Source of the DNA: Halobacillus sp. Marseille-Q1614
GTDB lineage: Bacteria; Bacillota; Bacilli; Bacillales; Halobacillaceae
Assembly (NCBI RefSeq): GCF_902809865.1
Contig: NZ_CADDWH010000001.1
Span: forward strand, 1,550,001-1,614,000
DNA length: 64,000 bases
Reading direction: 5' to 3'
Below the pieces are notes generated by a model. It had not been told where the DNA came from, made no database searches, and worked only from the letters and a program-made list of their open reading frames with translations. Numbering within the stretch: position 1 is the first letter of the stretch; each line of letters begins with the position of its first letter. The position numbers were made by a program, and so were the translations under genes. Of this stretch, positions 28,635 to 36,800 are shown piece by piece.

Positions 28635-28727
28635 GATAGAGAATCCTGATTGTTTACCTTCTCACCTTACTGCTATTCATCACACCATTTCATTAACCTA
28701 AAGATCATTTATAGAGGGGCAATGTTC

Positions 28728-29504
28728 ATGTTAACGGCAATCTTTCGTTTTTTTATTATTTGGTACATATGCGGCGTTTTTTTATTAAGCTTTGATCTAT
28801 TGCCGCCCTGGCTTGAATGGGCGAACAGTGTTTTTCTAATTACAGCCGGTGTGATCGGAGGCATTTATTTTACGCAGCTTTACGGCTGGTTGAGAGGTAT
28901 TCTTTACAGCTTTATCGTTATGGCTGTCAGCATCTATGTGGAACATTTAGGGGTACAGTCCGGCTTTCTTTTTGGTGATTACAGCTACGGAGAGAATTTC
29001 GGCTTAAAAATCGTCGATACGCCTGTGACGATAGGCTTCGCCTGGCTGCTCGTCATCGGATGTTCTCATGAACTGGCGCGGGGCATTACCCGGCGTTTTG
29101 ATTTCTTCCCCCGTACAGTACTGTTTGTGCTTACAGGCAGTCTGATTGCCGTCACGATGGATTTAATACTCGATCCTGTAGCCTATAAAGTTCAGCAATA
29201 TTGGATATGGGACGAGCCTGGGGTTTATTATGATATCCCTCTTTCTAATTTTTTTGGCTGGTTTGTACTTTCATTACTTTTTCACCTGATTTCTCTCGTG
29301 CTATTTAATAGGGATACCACTCTAATTTCAAAGCTATGGTATGGAAGAATGGCATTTATATACGGTGCAATTATATTTATGTTCGGCCTGCTCGCTGTAA
29401 TTGGCGGGGTAGGAGGCGCAGCACTACTCGTCGTCGTGCTGAGTTTCATCTGGTATGGTTTATATTTCTGGGGGGGGCGTCATGATAAAAGCGAAGAAAA
29501 ATAA
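28728..29504 (+). CDS. CruF-like carotenoid biosynthesis membrane protein (DUF422)
   Basis: The roughly 258-residue protein has about seven membrane segments and conserved acidic and histidine residues (VEHLGVQSG, CSHELARG, DLILDPVAY), the pattern of PF04240. Family members such as CruF hydrate carotenoid ends. In a C30 pathway it may add water to the apo-lycopene chain end. It is first in a four-gene unit with an acyltransferase, a glycosyltransferase and a desaturase. ATG 28728 or 28722 is possible (GAGGGGC upstream); longer frames lack a site. The 3' end carries a run of eight G. Confidence 0.8.
   Translation: MLTAIFRFFIIWYICGVFLLSFDLLPPWLEWANSVFLITAGVIGGIYFTQLYGWLRGILYSFIVMAVSIYVEHLGVQSGFLFGDYSYGENFGLKIVDTPVTIGFAWLLVIGCSHELARGITRRFDFFPRTVLFVLTGSLIAVTMDLILDPVAYKVQQYWIWDEPGVYYDIPLSNFFGWFVLSLLFHLISLVLFNRDTTLISKLWYGRMAFIYGAIIFMFGLLAVIGGVGGAALLVVVLSFIWYGLYFWGGRHDKSEEK
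29470..29477 (+). repeat. Homopolymer of eight G in the CruF-like gene
   Basis: G8 lies in the last codons of the CruF-like frame and forms the ribosome site (GGGGGGG then CGTC) of the acyltransferase starting at 29482. Slippage would change the CruF-like C-terminus and the spacing to the next start codon. Confidence 0.6.
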
Positions 29505-30153
29505 ATGGCTGATGTGGGGTTTTACACGTTTTAACCGGCAATTTATTAGAAGGAACTTCCAAAACATATACATTCGCAGGGAAAGTGAACGTCCTCTCAA
29601 TATGCGAAAAATGTTTATCGTTAATCATTCCAGCTGGTGGGACTCGCTCATTATCTTCTTTTTAAATGAGCAGGTCATCAAATCAGACGCTTATGGAATG
29701 ATGCACAAAGAAGGAATGGAGAGGTTCCCTTTTTTCCGCGGGATTGGAGTATATTCGATGGATGCCAATGACAGCAGCCACTTAATCGAATCCCTGCAAT
29801 ACAGCTGTGAACTGCTCAATAATGATAAAACAGTCTGGATATTCCCTCAAGGAAAAGAACAGCATTTAGAAAAGCGCCCGCTTGAATTCTCAAGCGGCAT
29901 TTCCTATATCGTACAAAAAACAGACGCAGTCGATGTGGTGCCTGTATCGCTTTACTATTCATTTGGCCACACGAAAAAGCCGGATGTATATATTCAGGTA
30001 GGGCGGCCGCTAGAAAACGGAACCTTCCAACAGCTGTCTAGAAAAAAGATCACAGATCACTTGGAAACAGTCGCAACTGAGCAGTTAGATCTTTTGAAAT
30101 CAGCGGCTGTAAAGGAACAGCATGACGAATTTGTTAATTATGGAAGGAGCTGA
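29482..30153 (+). CDS. PlsC-type acyltransferase of the carotenoid operon
   Basis: The 223-residue protein has the acyltransferase HX4D motif (NHSSWWDS) and, instead of the usual EGTR, the block FPQGKEQ; it is related to 1-acylglycerol-phosphate acyltransferases and to the acyltransferase that finishes staphyloxanthin. Here it probably esterifies the sugar of a glycosylated C30 carotenoid acid. Its start (ATG 29482) lies inside the CruF-like gene, an overlap of 23 bases, and its stop overlaps the glycosyltransferase start (TGATG), so all are translationally coupled. No signal peptide. Confidence 0.85.
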   Translation: MIKAKKNKWLMWGFTRFNRQFIRRNFQNIYIRRESERPLNMRKMFIVNHSSWWDSLIIFFLNEQVIKSDAYGMMHKEGMERFPFFRGIGVYSMDANDSSHLIESLQYSCELLNNDKTVWIFPQGKEQHLEKRPLEFSSGISYIVQKTDAVDVVPVSLYYSFGHTKKPDVYIQVGRPLENGTFQQLSRKKITDHLETVATEQLDLLKSAAVKEQHDEFVNYGRS

Positions 30154-31268
30154 TGAGTACATTGATTTTAACGATTGCGCTGGTTCTCACACTAATTCTT
30201 AACTTATGGACGATCATTAACAGCTGCTTTCTTCCGTCTCTTGAACGCTCTAAACCTATAAAAAAAAAGCCGCTAGTGTCTTTTTTAATTCCTATGCGTA
30301 ATGAAGAAGATCAAGTTAAAGGACTCATTGAATCATTGAAACAAGTGACTTATAATAATGTGGAATTTCTCATTATAGATGACCATTCGGAGGATCGCAC
30401 ACCTGAACTGCTGCAAAAATACATACGCTCAGATCAACGGTTTACGGTATGGCAGGGAGACCCGCTGCCTTCAGGCTGGAATGGAAAAGTCCATGCCTGT
30501 CACCAGCTCTCCTTAAAAGCAAATGGAGACTATTATTTGTTTTTAGATGCAGATGCCCGTGTGGCTCCTGCTATTATTGAGCGGAGCCTGCTGACTTTAT
30601 GGAAACATGACGCATCAATGCTGAGCGGCTTTCCGAACTATCCGAGCCGTCATTTCTTATCACACATGCTCGTTCCCCTGCAGCACATGGTCGTCTGGCT
30701 GCACCTTCCATTAATGATGGCTAATTTTACAACTCGTCCAGCTTTCACAGCGGCCTGCGGTATTTTTATCTTCATTGAAAAGCAAGCTTATCAAGCCATA
30801 GGGGGTCATGAATCTGTTCAATCTTCGCTTGTTGAAGATGTCCATATTGCCCGTGAAGTAAAAAACCACGGATTTAAAATGATCCTGTGCAATATTTCGG
30901 ATTCTGTTATTTCTTTTATGTATGACTCTTCAAAGGAAACGTGGGAAGGGTTTAAGAAAAATATATTTACAGGCATCGGGCGTTCAAGTCTTCTGGCCTT
31001 TGGCTTAATGGCACTCTACTTTTTACTGTTTCTCCATCCGGCATTTCTTGCTGTCTACGGATTAGTCACCAGCCAGTGGGTATATGTACTCCCTTTTTTA
31101 TTAACCGTCTCTTTTAAAATGTATATAGATATTCGCACAAAACATCCTTTATGGCTCGCCTGGCTGCTGCCTGTATCAATTGTCTGCCTGATTGCGATAC
31201 TTATGGCTTCAATGTTTGTCAGCTTGAAGGGTAAAACCTATCAATGGAAAGGGAGGTTATACAAATGA
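30153..31268 (+). CDS. Family-2 glycosyltransferase (CrtQ-like) of the carotenoid operon
   Basis: The 371-residue protein has an N-terminal anchor (about 3-25), a GT-A domain with VSFLIPMRNEE, DDHSEDRT and DADARV (metal-binding DxD), a later VEDVHIAREV, and a C-terminal membrane region (about 285-365). It resembles 4,4'-diaponeurosporenoate glycosyltransferase CrtQ of the staphyloxanthin route. It should transfer glucose to the carotenoid acid at the membrane face. The start ATG overlaps the previous stop by one base, and the next gene begins 4 bases before its stop. Confidence 0.86.
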   Translation: MSTLILTIALVLTLILNLWTIINSCFLPSLERSKPIKKKPLVSFLIPMRNEEDQVKGLIESLKQVTYNNVEFLIIDDHSEDRTPELLQKYIRSDQRFTVWQGDPLPSGWNGKVHACHQLSLKANGDYYLFLDADARVAPAIIERSLLTLWKHDASMLSGFPNYPSRHFLSHMLVPLQHMVVWLHLPLMMANFTTRPAFTAACGIFIFIEKQAYQAIGGHESVQSSLVEDVHIAREVKNHGFKMILCNISDSVISFMYDSSKETWEGFKKNIFTGIGRSSLLAFGLMALYFLLFLHPAFLAVYGLVTSQWVYVLPFLLTVSFKMYIDIRTKHPLWLAWLLPVSIVCLIAILMASMFVSLKGKTYQWKGRLYK

Positions 31269-32734
31269 AAACAGTTATTGTCGGCGGCGGATTAGGAGGG
31301 CTGTCCGCAGCCGTTTCACTGGCTAAGGAAGGCGTGGAGGTCGAGCTTTTTGAAAAAAATGATCACTTTGGCGGTAAGATGATGCCTGTCGATGAAGGGG
31401 GCTATCACTTTGACTTTGGCCCTAATACGATTACGATGCCGCACGTATTTCAAAACGTGATGGATGAAGGAAGACTCCCGCGCAGCGAACAGCCCGTTTT
31501 TCATAAACTGACAAACCATACTCGAAATCAGTGGGAAGATGGAACCGTTTTTGACCTTTCAACCGATCGTTCCTATATAAAACAGCAGCTTCAGAAGCTG
31601 GATCCTAAAGCGGAATCGACTTATGACGACTTCCTGAAAGAAGCCGAACGTCTTTATGATTTATCGAACCGTCATTTTATAAATCGCTCATTTTTATCGT
31701 TCAAGGATTATATATCGCTGGAACTGGCCGTTAATACGATGAAGGTCCGCCCTTTTCAGTCGATGAACAGCTTCTTTTCCAAGTATTTTTCTCATCAGGG
31801 AATTGTTCAATCCTTAAATCGTTATGCCACGTACATAGGATCCAGTCCATATCGCTGCCCTGCTACATTTGCCATGATTGCCCACCTGGAATTAAATGAT
31901 GGTGTTTACTACGTGAAAGGAGGAAACACCCGGATTGCAGCTGCTTTTGTAAAAGCAGCAAGAAATCAAGGGGCGAAACTGCATTCAGGGACAGAAGTCA
32001 CCCGCCTGCTTACATCAAAAAATAAAATCACGGGCGTCCAGCTGTCAAATGGAGAGAAAATACATGCTGACCACGTCATTTTAAACGGGGACCTCTTACA
32101 TACACTTCCACGGCTGCTAAACAAGAAGGAAAGGCGCTCGTTAAGTGACCGTTCGATTGAACGTTATGATCCTTCCGTTTCTGCTTTTGTCATAATGGCG
32201 GGCCTTAATACAAAAATCAGCGAGCTCCATCACCATCATGTCTTTTTTTCTTCTGATTATGAGAAGGAATTTAAGGAACTGACCCACGGACAGTACAGCA
32301 GTGACCCTACCGTTTATATTTGTACGTCCTCTAAATCGGACGCCGAAGTATCTCCCCGCGGTGATAATTGTTTTATTCTTGTCAATGCACCTCCTGTTCA
32401 AAGCAGCAGCATCGAAAAAGAAGCCTATAAAAAAGTGATCTATGACAAATTACACAGAAATCATATTGAAATTAAGAAGCATGTATCGTTTGAAAAAGTC
32501 ATTGGCCCCGAGGATATAGAATCTCAATTTTATTCATTTAAAGGTGCTCTATACGGCCCCTCTTCAAATACGAAAGTACAAGCATTTAGAAGGCCGTATA
32601 ACCAGTCACAGGATTATTCAAACCTTTATTTCTGTGGAGGGAGCACGCACCCTGGAGGCGGATCTCCGATGGTCGTCCTCAGTGGACAAAACGTTGCCCA
32701 TCACCTCATCGGAAAGAGATTATCCATGGAATAG
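31265..32734 (+). CDS. CrtN-type carotenoid desaturase/oxidase, paralogue c
   Basis: The 489-residue flavoenzyme starts with the FAD-binding VIVGGGLGGLSAAVSL, then the FEKNDHFGGKM segment, and ends with GGSTHPGGGSPMVVLSGQN typical of phytoene desaturases. It is one of three CrtN-like paralogues in the window. In Halobacillus and Bacillus C30 pathways one paralogue (often CrtNc) oxidises terminal methyl or aldehyde groups; its placement with the glycosyltransferase suggests the oxidation step that gives the carboxylate. ATG 31265 has GGGAGG. It ends at the hairpin shared with crtM. Confidence 0.85.
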   Translation: MKTVIVGGGLGGLSAAVSLAKEGVEVELFEKNDHFGGKMMPVDEGGYHFDFGPNTITMPHVFQNVMDEGRLPRSEQPVFHKLTNHTRNQWEDGTVFDLSTDRSYIKQQLQKLDPKAESTYDDFLKEAERLYDLSNRHFINRSFLSFKDYISLELAVNTMKVRPFQSMNSFFSKYFSHQGIVQSLNRYATYIGSSPYRCPATFAMIAHLELNDGVYYVKGGNTRIAAAFVKAARNQGAKLHSGTEVTRLLTSKNKITGVQLSNGEKIHADHVILNGDLLHTLPRLLNKKERRSLSDRSIERYDPSVSAFVIMAGLNTKISELHHHHVFFSSDYEKEFKELTHGQYSSDPTVYICTSSKSDAEVSPRGDNCFILVNAPPVQSSSIEKEAYKKVIYDKLHRNHIEIKKHVSFEKVIGPEDIESQFYSFKGALYGPSSNTKVQAFRRPYNQSQDYSNLYFCGGSTHPGGGSPMVVLSGQNVAHHLIGKRLSME

Positions 32735-32735
32735 A

Positions 32736-32775
32736 AAAAAGCAAATTATTGCATATCGGCAATAATTTGCTTTTT
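32736..32775. terminator. Bidirectional terminator shared by the two crt operons
   Basis: AAAAAGCAAATTATTGC (32736-32752) pairs perfectly with 32759-32775. The right half encodes the last codons and stop of crtM on the minus strand, so it is both coding and terminator. Confidence 0.9.
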
Positions 32776-33582
32776 CTGCTGGTCGGAGACATAGTTTCTA
32801 CGACGAAAGACTTCATAATTGTTATCACGAACGGAAGGTAAAATCGCCCGGTAAAGATAGGCCGCTCCTTTTACCGGTGTCCTCGAATATGAGGGGTACA
32901 TAGGGAGAGTAGCAATTCCTCTTTTATAATAATATTCTGCCTCTTCTGCAAGTTCTTCCCAAAGGTTTATAAATGAAGAGTTAATGATGCCCGCTCTTAG
33001 ATCCTCACAAGAATATTGATGATTTTCAAGTAAATCCTTTGGAAGATAGACACGTTCTCTGTCTAAGTCTTCCCCAATATCACGAAGGATGTTTGTGATC
33101 TGCATCGCATAACCGAGATCAACGGCTCCCTGTCGAAGCTCTTTTTCACGCCCCGGGGCAATCACAGGCAGGAGCATTAGACCAACCGTGCTGGCCACGT
33201 GGTAACAGTAAGATAATAGATCTTCTTTCGTCCTGATCGTTCTTGGTTCAAGATCCATCCACTGTCCCTCAATCTGCTCGTAAAAAGGTGTGGGGTCCAT
33301 CGGGAATTTTTCAAAAACGTCAGCTAAGGCTGTCCATGCCGGGTGCCGGCTTTGTAATTTCCCTTGAACGAACTGATCGAATTGGAGGGTAAATTGGGTT
33401 AACTCTTCTTTAGGGTTTTCTCCTTCATCAACTATATCATCGACCTGGCGGCAGAAAGTATAAATCGCCCATACCGCTCTCTTCTGGTCTTTAGGGAGCA
33501 TTGAAAAAGCTTTGGAGAACGTTTTGGAATGTTTGTATATGACATCTCTGCAATATTGATAAGCTGCGTTTAATTCGCTCAT
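32746..33582 (-). CDS. crtM: Dehydrosqualene (diapophytoene) synthase CrtM
   Basis: The 278-residue squalene/phytoene synthase has both aspartate-rich motifs, DDIVDE in the first helix region ([11 protein letters not shown]) and the second in [18 protein letters not shown]. In C30 producers it joins two farnesyl diphosphates to dehydrosqualene. Length and neighbours (two CrtN) point to C30 rather than C40 products. ATG 33582 has GAGGTGG. It is the last gene of the minus-strand crt operon, starting one base after the crtNb stop. Confidence 0.93.
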
Positions 33583-33583
33583 T

Positions 33584-35059
33584 CTATCCACCTCGCTTAT
33601 AATTATGCCTATGCTCTATTAAAAGCTGCAAGTGATCCGCCAAGAGTTTTGCCCCTTGCATAACGATTGGTATGCCGCCGCCTGGATGGATCGAGGCGCC
33701 TGCTGCAAAAACGTTATCTAAAGGGTATGGCTGCAGCTGGGGGCGAAAGACACCTGACTGAAACAGTGTAGGGGCGATCCCGAAGCTGCCTCCTTGAAAC
33801 AAACCATCTCTTTGCGCATCTTCTGGTGTACGAATTCTCATCCATTCAATATGCTTCCTTAAATCCGGGAATCCTCTCTTTTCCATCTGATCAATCACTA
33901 GTTCAACAAGCTCATCTTTTTTAGACCAGTCCACATGTTCACTTGCAGGAACAGGAACTAATGTATATAAAACTCCTTTGCCTTCTGGAGCTAAGGAGGA
34001 GTCGATGATCGACGGATGAAACGTGTAGAAGGATGGATCGTCCGGCAGTGTCTTTTCTAAAAAGACCTGCTGCATATGGCGGTCAAAATCATCAGACATA
34101 AAGAACTGGTGAATCGTTTCTCTTTCATAAATTTTATTTAATCCCATGTAAATTAACAGACATCCGGAAGAAGGTGTATACCGGCGGCGAATTTGTTTAT
34201 GAACTGGAAATAAACGATCCATAAGGGGAAAGTCTCCATTTAATACGACACGATCCACAGGGAAAGTGCTGCCGCCCGCCTTAAGACTGGTAACCTTTCG
34301 CTTTTCAGTATGAATGCTTTCCACTTCACAGTTGGTTTCAATTTGAACGCCGCGCTTCTTTAATTCCTCGACAATAATTTCGACAAGTTTAGCGTATCCT
34401 CCCATCAGGTACCAGATGCCGTGTTTATGCTCACTATAGGAAACTAAAGAATACATTGCAGGCGACTGCTCAGGATGTCCGCCGATATATAGCGTCTGCA
34501 GTGTGTAGGCCTCAATTAACCGCTCATCTTGGAAATAATTCTTCATCATTTTTTTAACGTTTTGATAAGCTCTCAACCTCATAAGTGTCTGCAGGTTCTT
34601 TGTCGTAAAAAACGTTTTTTTATTTACAAATGATTTCTCTAGGAACTGTTCTTTGCCCTGCATAAAACGCAGCTTCATGTCTTCAAGAAATCGATAGTAA
34701 CCGGCTTCATTACCGGGAAATTTTCTGCTGATTTCGTCGATCTGCTTTTCTATGTCAGCGTATTTCGTAAAGCTATATCCGTCTTTAAAGTGAATGTGAT
34801 AAAGAGGGTCACACGGAACGATAGGAATCTGGCTGCGGCTTATTCCTCCTTCTTCAAGAATTGAAAGAAGCATTTCAGGGAGAAGCACGATCGTCGGGCC
34901 TTGGTCGATTTTATAGTCTCCCTGTTTTTCATAGGTGAGCCTTCCGCCTAAGTGGCCGTTTTTTTCTAAGATCCTGACACTTTCTCCACGCCTGGAAAGA
35001 ATTAAAGCAGTGACCAGGCCGCCGATCCCTCCTCCAACAACCGTTACTTCTGACTTCAT
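33584..35059 (-). CDS. CrtN-type carotenoid desaturase/oxidase, paralogue b
   Basis: The 491-residue flavoenzyme opens with [21 protein letters not shown] and ends with the [18 protein letters not shown] signature. It is the middle gene of the minus-strand operon, overlapping crtNa (ATGA) and followed directly by crtM. In Staphylococcus the second CrtN-like enzyme, CrtP, oxidises 4,4'-diaponeurosporene, and that is the likely role here. Which of the three paralogues desaturates and which oxidises cannot be decided from sequence alone. ATG 35059 has AGAGGCGG. Confidence 0.85.
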
Positions 35060-36540
35060 AATGCCGCCTCTTTTCTTTCTTTCATCCAATTCGTCGTAAT
35101 TCGTGCAGATTCGAGTATTGTCGGAAGGCCGCTCCCTGGATGGGTTCCTCCTCCTACTAACCAGCAGTTGCCGAGCTCCTCGAAGCGGTTATGGGGACGA
35201 AAGTACATCATTTGTGACAGCTGATGCCCCATACTGAAAGTCGCTCCTTTATGAACATAATGATCTGTTTCCCACTGCATAGGCGTTAACACTTTTTCTT
35301 CAACGATGTGGCTTCTTAAATCTTTAAATCCTGTTTTCTCTTCCACTTCATCTAACACCAAGTCTCTAAAGGCCGCTTCTTTATCCTCCCAGTCAATCTC
35401 CGCATAGTTGTTTGGGACAGGAGCAAGAATGTATAATGCTGAGTGGCCTTCTGGAGCCAGCGTAGGGTCTGTGACGCTCGCATTATGAATATAGATGGAA
35501 GGCTCTTTTGAAAGGACCATATCTTTCGTCATTTCTTCTACGTTCTTCTTGTAATCTTTAGCAAACAAAATCGTATGGTGCGGCATATCATACTTGCGGT
35601 TAACTCCGAGATAAATCATAAACGTGGAACAGGAGAATTTACGTTTATCGAGTTTTTCTTTTGAAAATTTCTTGAGGACGCCATCTTTTACGAACCTGTT
35701 CATCGAATGGGCAAAATCTGCATTTACAATAACTTCATCAGCTTCTGCAATTTCTCCATTCTCAAATTTAACGCCGGTTACTTTCCTGCCATCAAGCAGG
35801 AACTCTTCCACCCCTTTATTCAAGTGGATCTTTCCTCCGAGTTCTTCAACGGCTTTTGCCATCGACTTGGATAATTGATTGACACCCCCAATAGGGTGGA
35901 AAACGCCATATTCATGTTCCATATACGATAGGATAGAAAAAGCACCCGGACATTCCCACGGTGACATTCCTAAATACTTCGCCTGAAAAGTAAACGCGAT
36001 CTTTAATTGTTCATCAGTAAAGTATTCAGAGAGAACATCATATACAGATTTACCAATCGACAGCTGCGGCAGTGCTTTTAATGCCCTTGGACTGATATAA
36101 TCCATGAGACGGTGATGTCTCGTTTGTAATAGCGGAAGCAGGGTGTTCATTTTCTTGCGTGTATCCTTCATAAAACGAAGGTACCCCTCTTCATTGCCCG
36201 GGAAATGTTTTCTAATCACTTCAAGCATCTTTTCTTTATCGCGATACATCGGTACTCTTTCATTTTCAAACTGAAGCTCATACATTGGTGAAAGCTCCAC
36301 TAAATCTATATAATCATGCAGGTTTTTCCCAGTCTGTTGAAAAATTTCTTCAGCGATATGCACCATGCTTAAAAAGGTAGGGCCGATATCAAAGGTATAA
36401 GAACCGAGACGGAAGTGGCCGTTTCTGCCGCCTACATAATTTTGCTTTTCAAATACTTGCACGTCGTATCCATCTGCTGCCATCAGCATGGCTGCAGCTA
36501 ACCCTCCCGGCCCTGCTCCTATTACATTAATCTTCTTCAT
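35056..36540 (-). CDS. crtN: Dehydrosqualene desaturase CrtN, paralogue a
   Basis: The 494-residue enzyme starts INVIGAGPGGLAAAMLMAADG, the Rossmann FAD motif, then VFEKQNYVGGRNG, and ends with GGGTHPGSGLPTILESA. As the first gene of crtN-crtN'-crtM it is the best candidate for the stepwise desaturation of dehydrosqualene to diaponeurosporene or diapolycopene. AAGAGGTGG precedes ATG 36540. The operon has a near-consensus sigma-A promoter at 36578-36606 overlaid by 11-bp spaced direct repeats, so it is probably under a dedicated repressor. Confidence 0.92.
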   Translation of the reverse strand: MKKINVIGAGPGGLAAAMLMAADGYDVQVFEKQNYVGGRNGHFRLGSYTFDIGPTFLSMVHIAEEIFQQTGKNLHDYIDLVELSPMYELQFENERVPMYRDKEKMLEVIRKHFPGNEEGYLRFMKDTRKKMNTLLPLLQTRHHRLMDYISPRALKALPQLSIGKSVYDVLSEYFTDEQLKIAFTFQAKYLGMSPWECPGAFSILSYMEHEYGVFHPIGGVNQLSKSMAKAVEELGGKIHLNKGVEEFLLDGRKVTGVKFENGEIAEADEVIVNADFAHSMNRFVKDGVLKKFSKEKLDKRKFSCSTFMIYLGVNRKYDMPHHTILFAKDYKKNVEEMTKDMVLSKEPSIYIHNASVTDPTLAPEGHSALYILAPVPNNYAEIDWEDKEAAFRDLVLDEVEEKTGFKDLRSHIVEEKVLTPMQWETDHYVHKGATFSMGHQLSQMMYFRPHNRFEELGNCWLVGGGTHPGSGLPTILESARITTNWMKERKEAAL

Positions 36541-36557
36541 TCAGCCACCTCTTAACC

Positions 36558-36598
36558 TATACAAATGTTATACAAAAATTATACAAAGGATATATGTA
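36558..36598. promoter_or_regulatory. 11-bp spaced direct repeats over the crtN promoter (CarH/LitR-like operator)
   Basis: TATACAAA begins at 36558, 36569 and 36580, exactly one helical turn apart, with a degenerate fourth unit (TATATGTA) at 36591. The TnTACA core and 11-bp direct-repeat spacing are those described for the B12-dependent photoreceptor CarH. The repeats cover the -10 element and the start region of the crtN promoter. Confidence 0.7.
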
Positions 36599-36606
36599 AG
36601 TTGCAA
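36578..36606 (-). promoter_or_regulatory. Sigma-A promoter of the crtN-crtN'-crtM operon
   Basis: On the minus strand TTGCAA (36606-36601) and a perfect TATAAT (36583-36578) are separated by exactly 17 bases, about 40 bases upstream of the crtN start. The -10 lies within the third TATACAAA repeat. Confidence 0.82.
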
Positions 36607-36800
36607 TTAATCACTAGCTTCCAATGTGTTCCTGTTTAATTTCCATGTCATACCATACCCTCCACTTTTAGCAAATAAGCCTCCTCTTTATACACCTAAA
36701 CTACATTTATTTAATAAAAGAATGAAATCTGGGTGAATCCCCATACCCTCCGCTTGTACCTAACATAGTCTGAGAATGTAAGATAACAGGAGGTGACATT

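Follow-up and report, generated by a model that had tools for sequence, protein, structure and literature searches.

Predicted Operator of a B12-Dependent LitR/CarH Repressor at the crtN Promoter of Halobacillus, and a Candidate Second Site before an Spx/MgsR-Type Gene

The Carotenoid Genes and the Repeats at the crtN Promoter

The window (the whole stretch of 64,000 nucleotides of Halobacillus sp. Marseille-Q1614 that was analyzed) contains two convergent sets of carotenoid genes, at 28722-32734 and 32746-36540, the ends of which lie 11 bp apart. The minus-strand set, the crt operon, starts at 36540 and is formed by two genes of the CrtI family followed by a squalene/phytoene synthase gene. 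The first of these is the crtN of the original prediction, and its closest counterparts are found in Halobacillus, with up to 88% identity. The features of the region are the following:

28722..32734, plus strand: convergent second carotenoid set (CruF-like, acyltransferase-like, glycosyltransferase, and CrtI family; profile matches)
32746..33591, minus strand: squalene/phytoene synthase family gene (PF00494, E 2.6e-69)
33584..35089, minus strand: second CrtI-family gene (TIGR02734, 353 bits; scanned as 33584-35062)
35056..36540, minus strand: CrtI-family gene, crtN, first in the crt operon (TIGR02734, 483.8 bits)
36554..36564, plus strand: 11-bp direct repeat 1 (nnnnTnnACAn; core TATACA at 36558-36563), in the crtN leader
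36565..36575, plus strand: 11-bp direct repeat 2 (core TATACA at 36569-36574), over the inferred transcription start
36576..36586, plus strand: 11-bp direct repeat 3 (core TATACA at 36580-36585), overlapping the -10 hexamer
36578..36583, minus strand: predicted crt -10 hexamer TATAAT (consensus match; aligned with relatives)
36587..36597, plus strand: pseudorepeat, a degenerate fourth copy (TATATG) that retains the T but not the ACA, located in the promoter spacer
36601..36606, minus strand: predicted crt -35 hexamer TTGCAA, at 17-bp spacing to the -10
36619..36629, minus strand: conserved block ACACATTGGAA upstream of the -35, GCACAT-like in most Halobacillus rows of the promoter alignment and not of the LitR type

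According to the original prediction, a minus-strand sigma-A promoter carries three 11-bp-spaced copies of a short sequence and a degenerate fourth unit across its -10 and transcription start. The repeats were confirmed in this position, at a promoter that is itself predicted. The sequence TATACAAA is present in three exact copies, at 36558, 36569, and 36580, with a period of exactly 11 bp, and the series is continued by the unit TATATGTA at 36591. The predicted promoter, TTGCAA-17-TATAAT (36606-36578), has 10 of the 12 consensus positions. Promoter-like matches are frequent by chance (a mean of 1.4 in shuffles of the crt promoter stretch), so this promoter rests on its position and conservation.

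The CarH-like core, period, and position of the repeats were also upheld. The tandem units fit the published nnnnTnnACAn, and three repeats plus a pseudorepeat over the -10 reproduce the form described for the operators of CarHBm, which consist either of four repeats or of three with a pseudorepeat, and overlap the -35 or the -10 (PMC9304148, in the portions available). The third unit lies over the predicted -10, ahead of the two CrtI-family genes and the synthase. The operator of CarHTt, the CarH of Thermus thermophilus, differs in that it includes the -35 element, whereas the crtN repeats cover the -10; the stricter CarHTt consensus, nAnnTnnACAn, contains an A that is missing from unit 2 here (PMC8156234, likewise in part). 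The repeats precede one of the two carotenoid sets only, and no site at a score of at least 12/15 was found near 28 kb, before the plus-strand genes.

Occurrence of the Repeat in the Genome

When up to three mismatches were allowed, the matches in the window were limited to two overlapping registers of the crtN site, where 100 shuffles gave 0.00 on average, and this was the sole site in the window at a score of at least 13/15. The 3.98-Mb genome contains exactly two copies of the core triple TNTACA-n5-TNTACA-n5-TNTACA and none of its backward reading, and the triple was not recovered in 79.9 Mb of sequence simulated from the window with an order-4 Markov model. The genome search for further triplets at 11-bp spacing thus recovered one other exact site. 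It is found outside the window, at C1:1061151-1061178 (L007:1501-1528), and starts 65 bp before the ATG of a gene of the Spx/MgsR family. A third candidate with one mismatch (L112:1501), before a 75-aa ORF with no Pfam match, was set aside, given that approximately 0.8 sites at 14/15 or better are expected per genome by chance.

The LitR/CarH Regulator

A MerR-type B12 regulator had been predicted to lie outside the window, and the genome does encode one LitR/CarH homologue. Six matches to the B12-binding domain were found, one of them in a 302-aa protein that combines a MerR HTH with the two B12-binding subdomains. Its gene, litR, is located at C1:1183097-1184002 (L004:967-1875), 366 kb before the window. 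The protein exceeds the cut-offs of PF13411, PF00376, PF02607, and PF02310, and aligns with the Thermus CarH 5c8d (E 8e-28) with conservation of the W, the EH, and the axial His; these four B12 residues are intact, in the W-x9-EH motif WEKNQITSAHEH and in GPNERHELG, which carries the axial His. The cut-off of the NCBIfam CarH equivalog (NF052513) is not reached (135.5 vs. 400 bits), although this model is the best-ranked of 14 families for the protein, which weakens the label of CarH equivalog and leaves membership of the wider LitR/CarH family unaffected. The genome also encodes methylmalonyl-CoA mutase, which is an AdoCbl enzyme.

One of the closest known systems is the CarHBm/LitR of Bacillus (Priestia) megaterium, which has the same MerR HTH, B12 domain, W-x9-EH motif, and 11-bp TnnACA repeats (PMC9304148 and PMC8156234, in part). 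It belongs to another genus, and litR is found here approximately 0.4 Mb from the crt genes. Another is CarHTt (PDB 5c8d/5c8e), which is homologous over the HTH and B12 domains and also acts on tandem 11-bp repeats. By analogy with these proteins, the Halobacillus LitR would bind AdoCbl, form a tetramer in the dark, and be released by light.

In some relatives, the homologues of LitR (L049, L050, L051, and the G114 protein, L252) have a conserved DNA-binding domain and have lost the W, the His, and the axial His, and these may perhaps be natural B12-blind forms.

The crtN Promoters of Related Genomes

The crtN promoter was compared in 24 genomes, that is, the own genome and 23 others, in all of which LitR was sought. 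A close LitR (49-85% identity) was found in 15 of the 23 and a distant one (40-42%) in three, while five had none; in four of the latter, the matches begin at residue 84 or beyond and leave out the HTH, and the fifth, a MAG with 0.8 Mb covered, has no match. All 16 of the close proteins (own included) keep the W, the EH, and the axial His. From the three distant ones, the W, the His, and the axial His are missing, and these proteins therefore look B12-blind.

The repeats were found to follow this division. All 16 genomes with a B12-competent LitR reach a triple score of at least 12/15 at crtN, a threshold chosen after the scores had been seen, and 15 of them reach at least 13. None of the other eight attains 12, with scores of 9, 9, and 9 in the genomes with a distant LitR (L029-L031), where the operator is thus absent, and of 9, 9, 11, 9, and 10 in those with none. 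The signal is also specific to the period of 11 bp, at which 15 of the 16 score at least 13, against none at eight other spacings between 7 and 15 bp, except for one of the 16 at 13 bp. The register of the repeats relative to the -10 shifts between species, which is not what a constraint on the promoter only would produce. Owing to their shared phylogeny, the species do not count as independent cases. The repeats are thus kept in related species and track LitR there, and a lack of such conservation had been named as a reason to abandon the original prediction. Taken together with the regulator encoded in the same genome, this sequence evidence indicates that the crtN repeats are very probably the operator of a B12-dependent LitR/CarH repressor of the genome itself. 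An operator of this type at a crt promoter is of a known kind, to which the Halobacillus site adds one.

A further block, similar to aGCACATTg, precedes the -10 of crtN by approximately 45 nt. It is recognizable in 11 of the 12 Halobacillus rows (L011-L021 and the window), the divergent row being L015, and reads ACACATTGG in both the window and L011. It was not recognizable in the Pontibacillus, Priestia, and Robertmurraya rows of the crtN promoter alignment. This block is perhaps the site of an activator.

The Site before the Spx/MgsR-Type Gene

The protein encoded downstream of the second exact site has a CxxC and exceeds the cut-offs of both TIGR01617 and the Spx subfamily model NF002459 (132.2 vs. 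123). It belongs to the Spx/MgsR family and is distinct from Spx itself; a second, Spx-like copy, at 43-46% identity, is found in many of the same genomes. Its gene is adjoined by genes for a metallo-beta-lactamase and a DUF2626 protein, and then by ORFs that were read as pilin-like, a neighborhood that we take to correspond to the yqgX-yqgY-mgsR-comG order of Bacillus subtilis. The MgsR of that species is similarly a CxxC regulator of the Spx/MgsR family, with metallo-beta-lactamase and DUF2626 genes adjoining. It is exclusively sigma-B dependent. At the mgsR site, two readings of the promoter fit by eye, one sigma-B-like (GTTTAA-13-GGTTAT) and the other sigma-A-like (TTTAAA-17-TACAAT). In the own genome, the repeats have the opposite orientation relative to the gene to that found at crtN.

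The exact triple was matched 18 times in 14 of the 23 related genomes (the reversed control gave 0). In 13 cases, it lies before the mgsR-type gene, in four at crtN, and in one elsewhere. Of 17 mgsR-type promoters from the own genome and its relatives, 16 reach 14/15 at 11 bp and none does at other spacings, in a count that covers neither the locus L143 nor 15 Spx-like loci (L097-L111). The LitR-positive Robertmurraya genome (G018) has a site of 13 at this gene, and the exact triple was not found there.

Among 44 genomes of the own family, some of them of the same species, the exact triple is present in 28 of the 35 with LitR and in none of the nine without (Fisher 1.6e-5, uncorrected for kinship). 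The site is at the mgsR-type gene in 27 of these 28, as read from the sequence, with the downstream gene read in a subset of the loci. This mgsR is absent at E 1e-36 from all nine LitR-less genomes, and this crtN is present at E 1e-100 in just four of them, those of the genus g5, so the family count cannot separate the loss of the site from the loss of the gene. One genome (G056) has a LitR, at 58% identity, and the mgsR-type gene, yet scores only 10 upstream (L143), at a start codon that is uncertain. In another (G066), the mgsR-type site scores 14/15, and this crtN was not found.

The Survey of Spx-Family Genes across the Bacilli

A broader sample was drawn from 299 genomes of Bacilli, in which the Spx-family gene was matched in 94, the own genome included. 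LitR was sought in 80 of the 93 others, 13 having been left out by hand, and 41 had a match at E 1e-30. The 300 bp upstream of the gene (296 in one case) were scored on both strands in all 80. A site of at least 14/15 was found in 27 of the 41 genomes with LitR and in none of the 39 without, the best of which scored 13 (p 2.5e-11). Many of the rows are close kin, so the p-values overstate the evidence, which comes down to a handful of independent clades. The 27 sites are all at 11-bp spacing, and other spacings gave none, except in one LitR-positive genome at 9 bp. The sites are found in seven families of Bacilli (f1, the own family, to f6, and f26), with a weaker, reverse-strand site in one member of f3 (G101).

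Within the family f2, the four genomes of genus g7 have neither LitR nor the site, and the three of genus g9 have both. At the mgsR-type gene, the LitR-less g7 genomes have a GTTTA-n-GGGTA-like promoter, which presumably resembles the sigma-B consensus, where their sister genus g9 has the 11-bp repeats.

The 14 LitR-positive genomes without a site at 14/15 include five of genus g37 (scores of 12-13), eight of other families with a LitR at 34-40% identity, and G114, the LitR of which is B12-blind. The residues of LitR were read in 28 of the 41 genomes, including all 14 of these (the G190 protein is partial). Seven of the eight divergent proteins keep all four B12 residues, and the other (G077) has R in place of W. 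Over the 14 genomes, 12 keep the four residues, so a B12-competent LitR is not always accompanied by the site. The Spx-family matches at approximately 50% identity may not be orthologues of mgsR.

Alternative Explanations

The pattern of these sites suggests that LitR probably also acts on a second operator, before the Spx/MgsR-type gene. Alternatively, LitR may have its operator at crtN only, and the repeat at the Spx-family gene may be bound by a different regulator, or by LitR with no effect on expression. The link between LitR and this gene is one of sequence, and both the opposite orientation of the own-genome repeat and the 14 LitR-positive genomes that lack the site would be in keeping with such an arrangement. 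It is nevertheless rather unlikely, as the repeat has the same core and period as the crtN site, and its presence follows that of LitR through the class, including the contrast of g9 with g7 within a single family.

A regulatory role for LitR at these sites is also compatible with the lack of any light switch in this species, if the protein responded to B12 status only, or repressed in the B12-free manner of CarA. The existence of the B12-blind relatives lends this some substance, but it appears quite improbable for the own LitR, in which all four B12 residues are intact, in a genome that encodes methylmalonyl-CoA mutase, and the three crtN genomes with a B12-blind LitR have no operator at that gene.

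The idea that the repeats are simply an AT-rich promoter pattern, conserved through sigma-A recognition, draws on the AT-richness of the region and the -10 hexamer contained in unit 3, but is scarcely credible and has been largely refuted by the covariation with LitR at the Spx-family gene and the spacing controls, given that repeats 1 and 2 fall outside the hexamers, the signal nearly vanishes at spacings other than 11, and the promoters of the same gene in four LitR-less Salimicrobium genomes do not have it.

Proposed Mechanism and Significance

The preferred reading, in which LitR acts at both crtN and the mgsR-type gene, transfers to Halobacillus the photochemical mechanism of CarHTt and CarHBm (PMC8156234 and PMC9304148, in the portions available). 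In the dark, AdoCbl-bound LitR would occupy the three tandem repeats and the pseudorepeat, blocking the sigma-A polymerase at the crtN promoter. In the light, the cobalt-carbon bond would be broken and LitR released, allowing the transcription of the two CrtI-family genes and the synthase. LitR would also occupy the mgsR-type promoter, so that light would release pigment synthesis together with a redox and general-stress regulator. Binding, repression, the response to light and B12, and the direction of control at both crtN and mgsR would, by this analogy, be those of the characterized proteins. Given the same kind of site at the gene of a stress regulator, light may switch on both the pigment and a stress response, and if the mgsR promoter is of the sigma-B type, LitR would turn it into an AND gate that requires stress as well as light.

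Across the Bacilli, it is somewhat more likely than not that B12-dependent LitR is a switch of photo-oxidative stress rather than of carotenoids, with the Spx-family regulator MgsR as a widely conserved target and crt control as one branch. Darkness and B12 would then hold back, and light release, part of the redox and general stress response.

The crt operator would, by its sequence, extend B12-based light control to Halobacillus and its relatives, which are not listed among the characterized species in the parts of the literature available. The second site matters more, as the prediction that follows from it is the direct control of a stress regulator of the Spx family by a vitamin-based photoreceptor, across seven families of Bacilli. 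A second conserved operator of this type was not found described for P. megaterium, and a full-text literature search, at the level of the titles and the opening lines of abstracts among the matches listed, returned no link between LitR/CarH and MgsR/Spx, although the primary work on P. megaterium may contain one. If the prediction is correct, LitR would detect the danger of photo-oxidation before damage occurs, and light could reach the stress response of the Bacilli by a second route, in addition to the activation of sigma-B by blue light, which is mentioned in PMC7235348.

Further Candidate Sites

Five genomes of the own family (G031 and G062-G065) have LitR, and neither this crtN nor the mgsR-type gene was found in them at the cut-offs used; LitR presumably has other targets there. 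A triple of the LitR type (L120:1501-1528) precedes an ORF for a secreted protein, which we take to be DUF4397-like, adjoining a sortase-like ORF in two genomes (G033 and G036), and a third genome (G037) has a related site. This site is rare, and the same holds for the triples of the TTTACA form at L069/L119 and in G035.

The litR promoter itself was scored in the own genome and eight of 18 relatives. Six of these nine upstream regions reach 12-14/16 for four TnnACA units, a count that carries no calibration against chance, and the own region reaches only 10. In several relatives (L034-L048), the litR promoter has two TnnACA units, 11 bp apart and adjoining the -35, which are degenerate in the own genome (L004:850-967). 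This arrangement makes the autoregulation of litR possible in several of these relatives.
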